Positions 53,167 through 59,601 of a DNA stretch of 64,000 nucleotides are shown one piece after another (within the stretch, counting starts at the first letter, position 1; each line of letters begins with the position of its first letter). The notes under the pieces were generated by a model that saw nothing but the letters and a program-made list of their open reading frames with translations, did no database searches and was not told where the DNA came from. The stretch is from contig JADBYT010000012.1 in NCBI GenBank assembly GCA_020402865.1, positions 62,001 through 126,000 of the forward strand, written 5' to 3'. The position numbers were made by a program, and so were the translations under genes. This DNA is from Bacteroidota bacterium. GTDB lineage: Bacteria > Bacteroidota > Bacteroidia > Palsa-965.

Positions 53167-54624
53167 ATGAAGATTATTTACACGATTTTATTATGCTTGA
53201 TTTCACCCGCTTTTGTATTGGCACAAACTAATCTTGTGCGTAATCCTTCATTTGAATTTGATACCATTGCCCCGCCGGTAGATCAGTTCAACTGGCACAG
53301 GTATGAGTCGTGGATGTCGGACCGGGCAAGCGATGCAGCCAATCCGCAAATTGTACTTACAAAAGACTGGTATCAAACCACTAAGGGCACGCCCGACTAT
53401 TTCAACTCGTGGCAGTCGAGTCACGTGGGTTTTGCCACAAAAAACGCCCGCACCGGAAAAGGGCGAATGGGTATTATAGCCGGCGTATGCCACCACAGCC
53501 CCGCCTCTTGGCTGATTTACCAGAACGGCTACTCAGAATATGTATCCACACGGCTAACCCAACCGCTGGAAGCTGGCAAAACCTATTGTGTGCGCTACTA
53601 CACGGCACTCGACCGCAAATCGAATTTTGCCGCTGCACGCATGGGAGCACTGCTCACCCGCGACAGCATGCTCATGCCGGAGTATGAACAGCAAATCTGG
53701 CAACAGCAACCGCAGGTAATGAACGACAGTAACCGCTACATTACCGCAAACATGGGCTGGGTAATGATTTGCGATACGTTTATCGCAAAAGGTGGCGAGG
53801 AATTTCTCACACTCGGCAATTTCGATTTTTACCGTCCGCGAAACATCCACAAAGTAAACCACAAACTGCATGGCGGTATCCGCTGGAGTCCGATGGATAA
53901 GTTTGCGTATTACTACATTGATGATGTGAGTGTGACTGAAGTGCCGGATGATGCACCGGTTTGTGCAATTACGCGCGATAGTGTGGCGCGGAATAATCTC
54001 CTGCTGATTATTGACATTGAGAAAAACGAGCTGGATGTGGTGGCCGTGCAAACTGCGGTACATCAACTTGCGCAAACCATCAATCACAATGACATGATTA
54101 CGCTTGTAATTCATTCACCAAATGGCGGGCAGGTACTTCTGGAAAACTGTCCTGCCGATTCATTAGAAAAGATCAGCGCGGCACTTGGGCAAATTCGTTT
54201 AAGTGAACATCTGAAAAATAACTACACCGCTGTATGGGGTTATGAAGCCTTGCTTAAAAATTATTTACGTGATGGGAATAATCATGCAATTCTTATTACA
54301 AACAGGGAATTTAGCTATGACAGAAATAATTCGCACGTGATAGAAGATGCGGGGTATTATCGGGATGTAAAGTTTTCGATGATTATGCTTGATAACAAAA
54401 CAGCTCCGCGAAAAATGGAAAAACTGGTTGAAGAAAATAACGGGAATATCTTGGGCGCGGACGAAAAAACGCTTGCGGATGTGCTTGTGAAACAGGTTCC
54501 GCTTGAACAGCAAGACACGAAATATTCGGGGAAGAAAAACTATGTCATTGCCAGCTGGATATTTCTAAGCAAGGTGCTTCCGGTGTTGCTGGTGGTGATT
54601 TTGTTTGGGGCGAGAGGGATGTGA
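53167..54624 (+). CDS. Secreted VWA-like protein with C-terminal membrane anchor
   Basis: A 485-residue protein: signal peptide (IIYTILLCLISPAFVLAQ), an N-terminal beta domain opening NLVRNPSFEFDT (about residues 20-260; a carbohydrate-binding-like jelly roll is possible), then a von Willebrand A-like fold from NNLLLIIDIEKNEL. The metal site DxSxS is not kept (DIEKN), so it probably binds partners without metal. The last 23 residues form a membrane helix (SWIFLSKVLPVLLVVILFGARGM). The DNA for that tail is duplicated 1.3 kb downstream. Function unknown. Confidence 0.72.
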   Translation: MKIIYTILLCLISPAFVLAQTNLVRNPSFEFDTIAPPVDQFNWHRYESWMSDRASDAANPQIVLTKDWYQTTKGTPDYFNSWQSSHVGFATKNARTGKGRMGIIAGVCHHSPASWLIYQNGYSEYVSTRLTQPLEAGKTYCVRYYTALDRKSNFAAARMGALLTRDSMLMPEYEQQIWQQQPQVMNDSNRYITANMGWVMICDTFIAKGGEEFLTLGNFDFYRPRNIHKVNHKLHGGIRWSPMDKFAYYYIDDVSVTEVPDDAPVCAITRDSVARNNLLLIIDIEKNELDVVAVQTAVHQLAQTINHNDMITLVIHSPNGGQVLLENCPADSLEKISAALGQIRLSEHLKNNYTAVWGYEALLKNYLRDGNNHAILITNREFSYDRNNSHVIEDAGYYRDVKFSMIMLDNKTAPRKMEKLVEENNGNILGADEKTLADVLVKQVPLEQQDTKYSGKKNYVIASWIFLSKVLPVLLVVILFGARGM

Positions 54625-54810
54625 GAAGGAGAATGAATGTGAGAATGAGTAGTTGTATTTGACGGGAAGTTTCTGGTAATATTATTGGTGGATGTAAGCA
54701 CTCTCGCGGCAAGTTGCAAACTTGCGAAAAGGTGGAGAAAAGTTTATCCGGCTTTGCCGGGGTAAACTTTCATCAGCGTTGTTTTATCCGATTTTGCGGG
54801 TGTAAACCTT
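54551..54810 (+). repeat. Direct repeat, copy 1 (left boundary of AT-rich cassette)
   Basis: This stretch, beginning inside the last 74 bp of the VWA-like gene, reappears at 55846-56105 at an offset of 1,295 bp. The first 221 bp differ at three positions (including ATG to GTG in the last codon); the last 39 bp, around a decayed palindrome, differ at about ten. It includes the palindromes GCAAGTT/AACTTGC (54709-54725) and AAAGTTTA-CCGGC/GCCGG-TAAACTTT (54739-54770). Confidence 0.9.
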
Positions 54811-54953
54811 CTTCCTATGATTACAGCATTATTAGATTTTCTTTTTTTGCAAACCCCACATCATTAATTAAGTGTCAATAAATTACAATATCACAGAATT
54901 AAAATCAATAGATCTAGGGATATAAATACATAGAATAATCTTCATTTTTGAGT

Positions 54954-55838
54954 ATGGAAATAGGTCGTGTTTTATCAGTTAAAGATATTTTTGGATACAT
55001 TATTCCTGGCGGAATAATCATGGTATGCCTCCTAATATTAAAAAACTGGATACTAATTTCGGTACACACTGGAGTTATTCAAGAAATAGACCTCTGTTTA
55101 TTTAATAAATATCCCTTATGGAAGTGGATTATAATAATTATATTATCAGTAGGAATTGGTTTTATTAATGCTGCTGTAATGAAAAACCTATCAATTATTT
55201 TAGGACAACTTACAAAAGACAATAGTGAAATCAGTATTCGACTAAGAGATTTTCTCAGAAAAATAAAAATAAAACCCAATGGAATTTCCTCAATAATTAA
55301 AGGAATTATTTTTTTTAGTCGAGCTATTAGTTCTACAATAAGAGTTAATGATGTAAAACTAGATAAACATTTAATTTCCTCAATCATTGAAATTGCAATT
55401 GAGGATTTACCATTTTATTCCAAATACAGCTCTGTCAACATCAACGAAAAGTCAATTTCATTTAGGGAACGAGAGATTATGGAGAATGATGACTTTATTT
55501 ATGAATGTAGGGACAGAGTCTATATGAACCATAGAAATGATAATGACTCAGTTTTAATGAAACACTTGGATAGACTTTCAAGTAAAGAACAACTAATGCT
55601 AAATTTGGTTATACCCATAATGGTACTCGCATTTATATATATGTTTGGATTTTACAGACATGGTGATTCTTCAGAAATTTGGTTATTGATAGCAATTTTT
55701 GTAAGCCTTGTTTCAGGTTTTATATGTAAGTGGGCCCACGGCTACTGGAAAATGAGCTGGGCACAGGAAGTTTATCTTATATACTATTTATCTGTACTTG
55801 AAAAACGCAAAAACACCACTATCCAGACATCAGAGTAA
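54954..55838 (+). CDS. AT-rich four-helix membrane protein
   Basis: A 294-residue protein with two membrane helices near the N-terminus (DIFGYIIPGGIIMVCLLIL and WIIIIILSVGIGFINAAVM), a soluble middle of about 140 residues rich in lysine, isoleucine and asparagine, and two helices near the C-terminus (LVIPIMVLAFIYMFGFY and IWLLIAIFVSLVSGFICKWA). ATG at 54954 preferred; TTG at 54948 is an alternative. Codon use is strongly AT-rich, unlike its neighbours, and it lies between two long direct repeats: a likely acquired gene. The DIFGYIIPG opening resembles unnamed membrane proteins seen in accessory regions. No function can be assigned. Confidence 0.75.
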   Translation: MEIGRVLSVKDIFGYIIPGGIIMVCLLILKNWILISVHTGVIQEIDLCLFNKYPLWKWIIIIILSVGIGFINAAVMKNLSIILGQLTKDNSEISIRLRDFLRKIKIKPNGISSIIKGIIFFSRAISSTIRVNDVKLDKHLISSIIEIAIEDLPFYSKYSSVNINEKSISFREREIMENDDFIYECRDRVYMNHRNDNDSVLMKHLDRLSSKEQLMLNLVIPIMVLAFIYMFGFYRHGDSSEIWLLIAIFVSLVSGFICKWAHGYWKMSWAQEVYLIYYLSVLEKRKNTTIQTSE

Positions 55839-55845
55839 TACTGCA

Positions 55846-56105
55846 CCAGCTGGATATTTCTAAGCAAGGTGCTTCCGGTGTTGCTGGTGGTGATTTTGTT
55901 TGGGGCGAGAGGGGTGTGAGAAGGAGAATGAATGTGAGAATGAGTAGTTGTATTTGACGGGAAGTTTCTGGTAATATTATTGGTGGATGTAAGCACTCTC
56001 GCGGCAAGTTGCAAACTTGCGAAAAGGTGGAGATAAGTTTATCCGGCTTTGCCGGTGTAAACTTTCCTCAGCTATGGGTTATCCGGCTTTGCCGGGGTAA
56101 ACTTT
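55846..56105 (+). repeat. Direct repeat, copy 2 (right boundary of AT-rich cassette)
   Basis: Second copy of 54551-54810. It starts 8 nt after the stop of the AT-rich gene and keeps a remnant of the VWA-like gene tail (23 codons, now ending GTG TGA), in frame with the stop codon of the AT-rich gene. The palindromes are better preserved here than in copy 1. Confidence 0.9.
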
Positions 56106-56113
56106 CCTCAGCT
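56034..56113. repeat. Tandem palindromes (REP-like)
   Basis: Two copies of a 33-bp unit around CCGGCTTTGCCGG with AAACTTTCCTCAGCT (56041-56073 and 56081-56113, 40-bp period, one mismatch). Each can fold as a hairpin, the first with outer arms AAGTTTA/TAAACTT. The same core is found at 54739-54770 and at 4782-4820. Confidence 0.75.
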
Positions 56114-56157: not shown

Positions 56158-59100
56158 TTATTCGGTTTCCTGCTGGATGTCAATCATCGGCTTCAGTGCC
56201 ACCAGCGCAGCGGCAATAGAAGCAACACCTTCAAACGTTAGTGTGAGTTTGTTGTTGGCTTCTTTCATTTTAGCTGCGCGGGGATTGGCCTGAACGAATT
56301 TGAGTACAGAAGTAAATGCGTCAGACGAATAGTAGGGTGATTGCTGATTGCTGATGAAGTAGCAAATCATTTTTCCGTTTTTGAGCAGCACTTTTTCGAT
56401 GCCGATATCCATGGCTATCCAGCGCAGGCGCACCGCATCAATGAGTTCAGTTACCGATTCGGGGACAGGGCCGAAACGGTCGCGGAGCATGCTTTCGAAA
56501 CGCATGAGGTCGTTGTCGGTCTGGCTGTCATCGAGCTGGCGGTAGAGTGCCAGACGTTCGGTGATGGTTTGCACATAGCCGTCGGGGATGTGAATGCCGA
56601 GATCGGTGTCGATTTGTGTATCTTTTACATACACGCCGATGTGGCGGGCGTTTGGATCATCGCGGCGGCGGGTTTTGCGTTGCTGTTCTTCTTCGCGGAA
56701 GAGGTCTTTAAACTCGGTTTCCTTAAGTTCCTGAATGGCTTCGTCGAGAATTTTCTGATACATATCAAAACCAATATCGGAGATGAAGCCGCTTTGTTCG
56801 CCGCCCAGCAGGTTGCCTGCGCCGCGTATGTCAAGGTCGCGCAGGGCAATGTGGAAGCCGCTGCCGAGGTCGGAAAATTCTTCAATGGCTTTGAGCCTGC
56901 GCTGCGCCTCGCTGGTGAGCATAAACGGCGGCGGCGTAAACAGGTAACAGAATGCCTTTCGGTTTGAGCGGCCCACGCGGCCGCGCATCTGGTGCAAATC
57001 GCTGAGACCAAACATGTGTGCATCGGTAATAATTATCGTGTTTGCGTTGCTCACATCAAGGCCCGATTCGATAATGGTGGTGGCCACCAGCACATCGTAT
57101 TCGCCTTCAATGAAATCGACCATTGCCTGCTCCAGCTTCCCGGCTTCAAGCTGTCCGTGCGCCATTACCACACGTGCATCGGGACAAAGCCGCGAAACCA
57201 TTCCGGCAATTTCGGGCAGGGTCTGCACGCGGTTATGCACCACAAACACCTGTCCGCCCCGCTGCATTTCATACGAAACTGCATCGCGTATTACCTCTTC
57301 ATTAAACGTATGCAGCTCGGTTTGCACCGGAAAACGGTTTGGCGGCGGCGTGTTGATCACACTCAGGTCGCGCGCACTCATGAGCGAAAACTGCAGCGTG
57401 CGCGGAATAGGCGTAGCCGTGAGCGTAAGCGTATCCACGTTTGTTTTCATGGTCTTGAGCTTATCTTTCACGGCTACACCAAACTTTTGCTCTTCATCAA
57501 TTACAAGCAAACCAAGATCTTTAAACTTGATATCTTTGCTTGTAAGTGTGTGCGTACCAATGAGAATATCAATTTTCCCTTCGGCCAGTTTCTCAAGCAC
57601 TTCCTTCTTTTCTTTTGCTGTGCGGAAGCGGTTGAGGTAATCTACTTTGGCCGGAAAATCCTTCAGCCTGTCGCGGAATGTTTTGTAGTGCTGCAATGCA
57701 AGAATGGTAGTAGGCACAAGCACAGCCACCTGCTTACTGTCGCACACGGCTTTAAACGCGGCGCGAATAGCCACCTCTGTTTTCCCAAATCCCACATCAC
57801 CACACACAAGTCTGTCCATCGGCGCATCGCTTTCCATATCGCGTTTTACGTCCTGCGTAGCTTTAAGCTGGTCGGGCGTATCTTCATAAATGAATGAAGC
57901 CTCAAGCTCGTTCTGCAAATAATTGTCCTGCTGAAACGCGTGCCCCACCTGCGCTTTACGTGATGCGTAGAGTTTGATAAGATCGAAGGCTATTTCCTTC
58001 ACCTTCGTCTTTGTTTTCTGCTTGAGGTTCTGCCACGAAGCCGAGCCGATTTTATCAATGCGCGGCACCTCGCCTTCTTTACCGGCGTATTTCGCAATGC
58101 GGTGCAGCGAATGGATACTCACGTAAAGCACATCGTTATCGCGGTACATGAGGCGTATGGCTTCCTGTACTTTGCCGTTCACCTCCATTTTTTCAAGACC
58201 GGCAAAACGCCCCACGCCGTGGTCGATGTGAGTTACGTAATCGCCGGGCTGCAGGCCGCGCAGTTCTTTGAGCGTCATGGCTTCTTTCTTGCGCTGATAG
58301 CCGTCGCGCAGGCGGAAGCGGTGGTAACGTTCAAAGATCTGGTGATCGGTAAAGCAGGCTATTTTCAGCTTGTGATCGATAAAGCCTTCGTGAATGGAAG
58401 CCACAAGCGGCGTGTAATCAATACGCCGGCCAATATCGTCGAAGATGGCGCGGATGCGTTCGGCCTGCTTGGCGTTATCGGCAAAGATCAGGTTGCGGTA
58501 GCCGTTGGTGGTGTGTTTGGAAAGTGTTTGCGTGAGCAGGTCGAAGTTTTTATTGAATGCCGGCTGCGGCACAACGGTAAACGTTAAGCTGTGTGAAGCC
58601 TTGAGGGCAAAGCGATTTCCGAACTCTACGGCCGTAAGCTTTTCGAGTGAACGGCGAAAATCGTCGGCACCAATGTATTGCTCTTCGGGCGAAAGCCTGC
58701 GCACGGTGCTGCCTTCCACTTCGGTGCTGAAAATTTTCTGCGCCTGTTCAAACTCTTTCTGGATAAGCCCTTCGGCCTGCTCAATATCCATGAGCCACAA
58801 CGCCTGGCTGAATTTTCCGTTGCCTGCCGAGATGAAGTAATCGAAAAACGATTCACGGCTTTCGGCCAGCAGCTTACCCTGCACGTTGGGAATAATGGTA
58901 AGGCGGTCGAGATTTTTTAACGAAAGCTGCGTGAGCGGGTCAAAGGTGCGGATGGAATCTACTTCATCGCCAAAAAATTCGATGCGGTACGGATGTTCGT
59001 TGGCAAAGGAAAACACATCCACAATGCCTCCGCGTACCGCATATTGCCCGGCTTCATACACATAATCCACATGCTCAAAGCCGTATTCAAAAAGCAGATC

Positions 59101-59601
59101 GGTGACAAACGCAATCGACACTTTTTCGCTGCGTTTGAGTTCGAGTGTATTTTTGGCGAGGAGTTGCCGTGTCACCACTTTTTCCGACAGCGCCTGCGGA
59201 TACGTAACCACTACTGCACGCCCGTCGCGGCGTATGCGGTCGAGCACTTCGGCTCGCAGCAGTACATTGGCATTGTCGGTTTCTTCAATCTGGTAAGGCC
59301 GGCGGTACGAAGCAGGAAAGAACACGAGCGGAATTTCCAGCTTTTCGTCGCCTGCTTCATTGGTGGTGGTGAGCAGTGTTTCGAGGTCGTTCAGGAAATA
59401 CGCGGCAGCTTCTTTATCGGGCAGCACAAACATGTGCGAGAGCGGTGTTTCACGCATCACTGCTGCCGCAATAACCGCCGGCAACGAGCCCGCCAGTCCG
59501 CGTAAATGCACACGTGCAGGTTGTGTTTCGCCAAAAGCGGCAGTAAGTTCGCGCACCTGTGTATCGGCGGCATATTGCTGTTGTAATTCCTGTAACGTCA
59601 C
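56158..59601 (-). CDS. mfd: Transcription-repair coupling factor Mfd
   Basis: A 1147-residue protein of full family length. In order: UvrB-like N-terminal modules, the RNA-polymerase-interacting domain with LQPGDYVTHIDHGVGRFAGL, the RecG-like translocase with Walker A GDVGFGKTEVAIRAAF, Walker B LLVIDEEQKFGV, TATPIPRTL, and helicase motifs including QMRGRVGRSNRKAFCYL, then the TRCF C-terminal domain (about 1000-1147). It frees stalled RNA polymerase and recruits UvrA. The start codon is GTG, preceded by AAGG. Hairpin CTCCGTTTC/GAAACGGAG at 59657-59679 lies upstream. Its 3' end faces the palindromes at 56.1 kb. Confidence 0.97.
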   Translation of the reverse strand: MTLQELQQQYAADTQVRELTAAFGETQPARVHLRGLAGSLPAVIAAAVMRETPLSHMFVLPDKEAAAYFLNDLETLLTTTNEAGDEKLEIPLVFFPASYRRPYQIEETDNANVLLRAEVLDRIRRDGRAVVVTYPQALSEKVVTRQLLAKNTLELKRSEKVSIAFVTDLLFEYGFEHVDYVYEAGQYAVRGGIVDVFSFANEHPYRIEFFGDEVDSIRTFDPLTQLSLKNLDRLTIIPNVQGKLLAESRESFFDYFISAGNGKFSQALWLMDIEQAEGLIQKEFEQAQKIFSTEVEGSTVRRLSPEEQYIGADDFRRSLEKLTAVEFGNRFALKASHSLTFTVVPQPAFNKNFDLLTQTLSKHTTNGYRNLIFADNAKQAERIRAIFDDIGRRIDYTPLVASIHEGFIDHKLKIACFTDHQIFERYHRFRLRDGYQRKKEAMTLKELRGLQPGDYVTHIDHGVGRFAGLEKMEVNGKVQEAIRLMYRDNDVLYVSIHSLHRIAKYAGKEGEVPRIDKIGSASWQNLKQKTKTKVKEIAFDLIKLYASRKAQVGHAFQQDNYLQNELEASFIYEDTPDQLKATQDVKRDMESDAPMDRLVCGDVGFGKTEVAIRAAFKAVCDSKQVAVLVPTTILALQHYKTFRDRLKDFPAKVDYLNRFRTAKEKKEVLEKLAEGKIDILIGTHTLTSKDIKFKDLGLLVIDEEQKFGVAVKDKLKTMKTNVDTLTLTATPIPRTLQFSLMSARDLSVINTPPPNRFPVQTELHTFNEEVIRDAVSYEMQRGGQVFVVHNRVQTLPEIAGMVSRLCPDARVVMAHGQLEAGKLEQAMVDFIEGEYDVLVATTIIESGLDVSNANTIIITDAHMFGLSDLHQMRGRVGRSNRKAFCYLFTPPPFMLTSEAQRRLKAIEEFSDLGSGFHIALRDLDIRGAGNLLGGEQSGFISDIGFDMYQKILDEAIQELKETEFKDLFREEEQQRKTRRRDDPNARHIGVYVKDTQIDTDLGIHIPDGYVQTITERLALYRQLDDSQTDNDLMRFESMLRDRFGPVPESVTELIDAVRLRWIAMDIGIEKVLLKNGKMICYFISNQQSPYYSSDAFTSVLKFVQANPRAAKMKEANNKLTLTFEGVASIAAALVALKPMIDIQQETE

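Follow-up and report, generated by a model that had tools for sequence, protein, structure and literature searches.

Two copies of a gene's 3' end, with a single AT-rich gene between them, pose the question of how such an arrangement arose: was the second tail brought in with foreign DNA, or was it made on the spot from the resident gene? The locus lies in a 64,000-nucleotide stretch of one contig, which we call the window. A first-pass annotation had read it as the integration of a circular molecule by homologous recombination at a gene end, in a setting of REP-like hot spots. Here, the repeat and its cargo are described, the same layout is sought elsewhere in the genome and in other species, and the divergence between the tail copies is used to weigh the possible origins.

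The duplicated gene end and its cargo

The upstream host gene (53167–54624, + strand) is intact and encodes a protein of 485 aa, called VWA-like in the annotation, with no Pfam match. From codon 462 of its 485 codons onwards it is part of a 264-bp block (copy 1, 54551–54814, + strand) made up of the last 74 bp of the gene, including its stop codon, followed by intergenic DNA and two palindromes. The block recurs as a direct repeat 1,295 bp further on (copy 2, 55846–56109, + strand), in an ungapped alignment with 95% identity and 14 mismatches. The gene tail in copy 2 has no start codon and ends in GTG in place of the last codon ATG, and the copies have one coding difference only. Thus, as had been noted, the upstream gene was kept whole and only its tail is present twice. 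Downstream of copy 2, and with its end facing it, is the host gene mfd (transcription-repair coupling factor; 56158–59601, − strand). The full-length repeat has just two copies in the genome and is a host gene tail without a transposase; a composite transposon was rejected on these grounds.

The mismatches are unevenly placed. Counted from 0 at the start of the repeat, they lie at offsets 68, 188, 210 and 221, and the remaining 10 all fall within the last 37 bp, so that the first 227 bp contain 4 mismatches and the earlier count (three differences over the first 221 bp) is correct. The distal clustering is strong (KS p = 2e-6). Palindrome 1 of copy 2 (56035–56064, + strand) was located from its DNA fold (z-score −3.4), and its counterpart in copy 1 (54740–54769, + strand), of the AGTTTATCCGGCTTTGCCGGGGTAAACT type, was placed by a 1,295-bp shift from the copy 2 fold. 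Palindrome 2 of copy 2, at about 56083–56095 (+ strand) in the same fold, is where the distal differences lie, and it appears homogenised with palindrome 1. An Rfam search at the locus gave no match. The 7-mer CAGCTGG bounds the repeat unit on both sides: it is found at the start of each copy (54552 and 55847) and just past palindrome 2 of copy 2 (56109); it could be the mark of a microhomology junction, or a shared palindrome tail.

The copies are separated by a spacer of 1,031 bp (54815–55845) with a GC content of 29.7%, compared with 48.2% for the window; the lowest-GC 1-kb segment of the whole window, starting at 54801, falls here. The spacer holds one ORF, which we call M (54954–55838, + strand, 294 aa), and its stop codon is followed after 7 bp by the start of copy 2. 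No recombinase gene was found in the spacer. The GC3 of M is 0.26, against 0.51 and 0.59 in its two neighbours, and M is compositionally foreign to the genome. In its hydropathy profile, residues 11, 58, 214 and 240 mark strong peaks and residues 32 and 111 weaker ones, and M is predicted to have a soluble middle flanked on either side by two strongly hydrophobic helices; the first description of M as an AT-rich, four-helix membrane gene is thus borne out. A single-sequence AlphaFold model of M had a mean pLDDT of 42 and was set aside.

No family match to M was obtained in Pfam, PADLOC, NCBIfam or PHROGs, and no homolog was found among 395 genomes of the class and 395 of the phylum, in GTDB genome contigs, viral contigs, plasmids, phages or PDB sequences, or in any of the same-genus genomes searched. 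A weak match in one genome (G317) is not a relative; it falls inside the ORF of a gliding-type transporter subunit. With M found in no other genome, there was no instance of the gene at this site without the duplication, an arrangement that would have spoken against the integration first proposed. The absence of M from the same-genus genomes agrees with a recent, species-specific gain. Because of its architecture and the nature of the other cargoes of this type, our guess is that M is an accessory membrane protein that is mobile and acts as a stand-alone toxin or defence protein.

Comparison with relatives was limited by distance. Same-genus homologs of the upstream gene have ∼40% protein identity and none adjoins mfd, which in relatives has other neighbour genes. 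Since the nearest relatives are this distant, no empty or alternative-cargo version of the window locus was found. Nor was a donor or an excised form found. In one same-genus genome (G006), the upstream 485-aa gene has two paralogs in tandem, separated by 120 bp (L062, contig C133:30842–33784).

Recurrence of the layout

We scanned 1.55 of the 4.89 Mb of the genome for direct repeats (length ≥70 bp, identity ≥80%) spaced 0.3–8 kb apart. This gave 10 direct pairs and 1 inverted pair. Near direct repeats of the window type are thus rare, and a chance origin of the window pair is excluded.

Besides the window locus, four further loci in the scanned 1.55 Mb have the order gene tail, cargo, gene tail. 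At all five, the 3' end of an intact gene is duplicated, with repeats of 104–264 bp. The four are a ykgJ-like gene (PF03692) with a 237-aa cargo gene (C19:46412–47459), an rluB-type pseudouridine synthase gene with a 480-aa cargo gene (C5:1378–3268), a glycosyltransferase gene with a 199-aa cargo gene (C15:186029–187066) and a sugar transferase gene with a two-gene cargo unit (C15:189974–191187). No ends are shared among the cargoes of the five loci. The other five direct pairs were rejected as repeats in long repetitive proteins (C2, C10), tandem paralogs (C6) or a transposase/Rhs-like locus (C15:112309). At the last of these (C15:112309–117573), repeated Rhs-like fragments surround a transposase-like 421-aa gene, and it is perhaps an exchange locus for Rhs tips.

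The suggestion of REP-like hot spots did not hold up. Only the window locus and C15:186029, two of the five loci, have palindromes within their repeat, and the rest of the genome gives four weak palindrome matches to the window repeat, so that the palindrome family is neither dispersed nor common to the insertion sites. The glycosyltransferase-locus repeat (C15:186029–186186, L120) contains a large nested palindrome, GCAAAAACAAAAAACAAA ... CTCCGAGGTCTTTAAGACCTCGGAG ... TTTGTTTTTTGTTTTTGC.

The two-gene unit at C15:189974 encodes proteins of 61 and 191 aa with no Pfam match, and is toxin-antitoxin-like by layout only. It is sparsely distributed: of 295 genomes from the class, 59 have it. Across the loci L176–L205, the pair consists of a 58–70 aa protein with the motif ELDVDFIGGxxPLT and a protein of 180–190 aa. 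The pair is highly mobile, being found beside gene-end duplications, attC sites and transposase genes. Direct repeats of any kind flank it at 8 of 26 loci, compared with none of 46 control-gene loci. When the locus in our own genome is left out, 3 of 25 are host-gene-end duplications (L181, L186 and L194, in three other species) against 0 of 46 controls, a difference that is weak taken alone (Fisher p about 0.04). Not counted among these were loci with an integron attC array (L195, in G226), with transposase genes on the flanks (L201) or with other repeats (L183, L178). Near repeats in two relatives were also rejected: those in G004 were tandem paralogs or a G+C-rich repeat, and L064 in G006 was an integron attC array. 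This last (517–1794 of L064, contig C109), from the same genus, is an integron-like chromosomal array in which 135-bp palindromic attC-like sites, 97% identical, separate single genes.

One of the three loci in other species has more than one cargo. A thiL-type gene (AIR synthase family) in L186 (669–2126, G055) has its tail present three times, in the order intact thiL-type gene, two-gene pair, tail, RelE/ParE-type toxin pair (PF05016), tail. Since the nearer tail resembles the thiL-type gene more than the farther tail does, the two insertions look successive. Three congeners (G093, G286 and G212) have a single thiL tail, with neither pair within 1.5 kb; the next gene also differs. Over the loci of our own genome and of the other species together, repeat length differs by locus, from 48 to 264 bp.

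Origin of the second tail

The differences between tail copies bear directly on whether the second tail was imported or copied locally. In 84 coding bp, the rluB tails have six differing bases in five codons, all of them synonymous and including a change of AGG to CGC (P = 0.0004 under random substitution, Monte Carlo). A synonymous-only pattern implies that both tails diverged within working genes of separate lineages, and by this comparison one rluB tail is shown to have originated in a diverged lineage, in a gene that was functional there, and not by local copying. The ykgJ tails also have a synonymous lean (P = 0.014), the fragment having since gained a stop codon. Moreover, the ykgJ repeat extends exactly to the point where two paralogous neighbouring genes have their start codons. 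The proteins of these neighbours have only 38% identity, against 92% DNA identity between the tails; this pattern is as expected if donor and recipient held different alleles of the next gene. The thiL tails point in this direction as well, with 3 of 4 differing codons synonymous and both stop codons kept (P = 0.065).

The location of the differences is also informative. Distal clustering is seen at four of seven loci (the window locus, with the KS value given above; ykgJ, p = 0.04; rluB, p = 0.02; thiL, p = 0.006). The distal mismatches of the window repeat fit a donor-derived distal end, but palindrome 2 of copy 2, as noted, also appears homogenised with palindrome 1. Proximal identity, which is seen at several loci, agrees slightly better with an illegitimate join on one side than with a circle.

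Taken with this evidence, the window locus is probably the product of one gene acquisition, an insertion with long target duplication that arose by a single crossover of a donor fragment within the shared tail. A DNA fragment from a related strain would have carried the upstream-gene tail, the adjoining intergenic DNA and M. This fragment was probably trimmed and then circularised, or else illegitimately joined at one end, and a single RecA-type crossover inside the shared tail would then give the order seen: the upstream gene, its tail rebuilt; M; a tail fragment of original (or donor) origin; and mfd. A further crossover between the copies would delete M and leave the site clean. Of this scheme, we infer the circle, the part played by RecA, the direction of transfer and an origin of the window locus in the same way as that of the rluB locus. 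The genome does encode a ComEC-type competence protein (PF03772), a widespread type of protein that shows only that DNA uptake is possible. The integration originally proposed for the window locus is therefore upheld in part: the recurrence of the layout at four further loci and in other species and the donor evidence from rluB and ykgJ speak for it, whereas the window repeat, with its one coding difference, gives no donor signature either way.

We also put forward, tentatively, a broader scheme in which single genes and toxin-antitoxin-like pairs may spread without recombinases by serial single-crossover integration at gene 3' ends. Each event would rebuild the tail and leave the old tail behind, cargoes could stack, as at thiL, and they could be released as integration-competent circles.

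The alternative that survives best, although we consider it rather unlikely, is that a widely staggered break, or template switching during replication, let M in and that repair synthesis duplicated the 264 bp locally. The final structure would be identical, and the variation in repeat length among loci is in keeping with it. At C15:189974, 4 of 5 differences between the tails are protein-changing, which fits local copying followed by decay of the dead copy, and the donor signature is thus not present at every locus. Local copying, however, can give neither the synonymous-only divergence at rluB nor the two different neighbours after ykgJ, and it predicts an even spread of differences, which is not what the window repeat has. 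The sister loci (rluB and ykgJ) therefore favour recombination with the gene end of a diverged donor over local copying.

Little credence can be given to a two-step origin in which the tail was first duplicated in tandem, by slippage or by unequal crossover between the CAGCTGG words at 54552 and 56109, and M was inserted at the junction later. The word does bound the repeat unit on both sides, but it belongs partly to the palindrome's own tail, and CTCAGCT follows palindrome 1 as well. Two independent events would be needed, five times over in one genome, and no cargo-free tandem tail duplications were seen at these genes.

An assembly artefact is slightly harder still to accept. The assembly is in 49 contigs, and a short repeat mis-resolved in an assembly from a metagenome, or a free circle (tail plus M) merged with an empty site, might be imagined; a circle and an empty site together would give identical short-read words. 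Against this, there are 14 mismatches between the copies, four more loci of the genome and assemblies of three other species show the layout too, and reads must contain the cargo-to-tail junctions.

Finally, gene 3' ends are classic attachment sites, the single-gene cargo is compact and cassette-like, and true attC arrays occur in related genomes (L064 and L195), but a small integrative element or integron cassette is highly improbable given a spacer without a recombinase gene, cargoes without shared ends, repeats that are far too long and different at each locus, and a window repeat with no attC-like core by eye.

Comparison with known systems

The event at the window locus is real and well formed, but of a kind already known. 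Its interest comes from the repeated appearance of the layout within a single genome, from cargo other than restriction genes, from the stacking at thiL and from the test based on synonymous differences. At rluB, that test places the second tail in a functional gene of a diverged lineage, and so indicates that homologous recombination with donor DNA, rather than local copying, produced the duplication. The comparison of synonymous with protein-changing tail differences is simple, can be scaled to thousands of genomes and could settle which mechanism is dominant. It could also reveal single-gene cargo (toxin, defence or immunity genes) that is missed by standard mobile-element searches.

Minimal mobile elements are alternative cassettes between conserved genes that are exchanged by homologous recombination; the term itself appears in PMC3082526. 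The window locus resembles them in that a small gene set would be exchanged, recombinase-free, at a fixed chromosomal spot; however, minimal mobile elements swap by double crossover and leave no duplicated gene end, and no alternative cassette was found for the window locus. With integrative elements and integron cassettes at gene 3' ends it shares a cargo behind an intact gene and a repeat of the gene end on the far side, but there is no integrase and no short att core, and the 104–264 bp repeats differ from locus to locus.

A closer mechanistic parallel comes from Escherichia coli, where linear DNA with one homologous end gave target duplication in 56 of 60 clones (PMC3240628). In 14 sequenced clones the duplications were 109–950 bp, and they were explained by trimming, recircularisation and a RecA-dependent single crossover; true homology-facilitated illegitimate recombination was rarer and made deletions (PMC3240628). 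The window locus is likewise characterised by one homologous end, a target duplication and an insert that encodes no recombinase, and the repeats in our genome are within or just below the E. coli size range. That was a laboratory system with plasmid DNA, whereas here the process is deduced from the sequence of an uncharacterised bacterium. Classical homology-facilitated illegitimate recombination, in contrast, deletes target DNA, and at the window locus the target is duplicated.

In structure, the best match is insertion with long target duplication (Nobusato et al. 2000, Gene 259:99, as given in PMC1643837 and PMC3031569), which was described using two genomes of Helicobacter pylori and has been associated with restriction-modification genes. 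In the account given by these two sources, it is defined by comparison of occupied and empty strains and mostly concerns restriction-modification genes. The window locus is known from the occupied site alone, and its cargo is an orphan membrane gene rather than a typical one. What is shared is a recombinase-free gene enclosed by direct repeats that are long and variable and derive from the host target. Most reports of long target duplication concern restriction-modification genes, and how it arises is debated; this genome provides five instances with other cargo. The window cargo is not of the restriction-modification type (no family match); such cargo is not a strict requirement of the structure.
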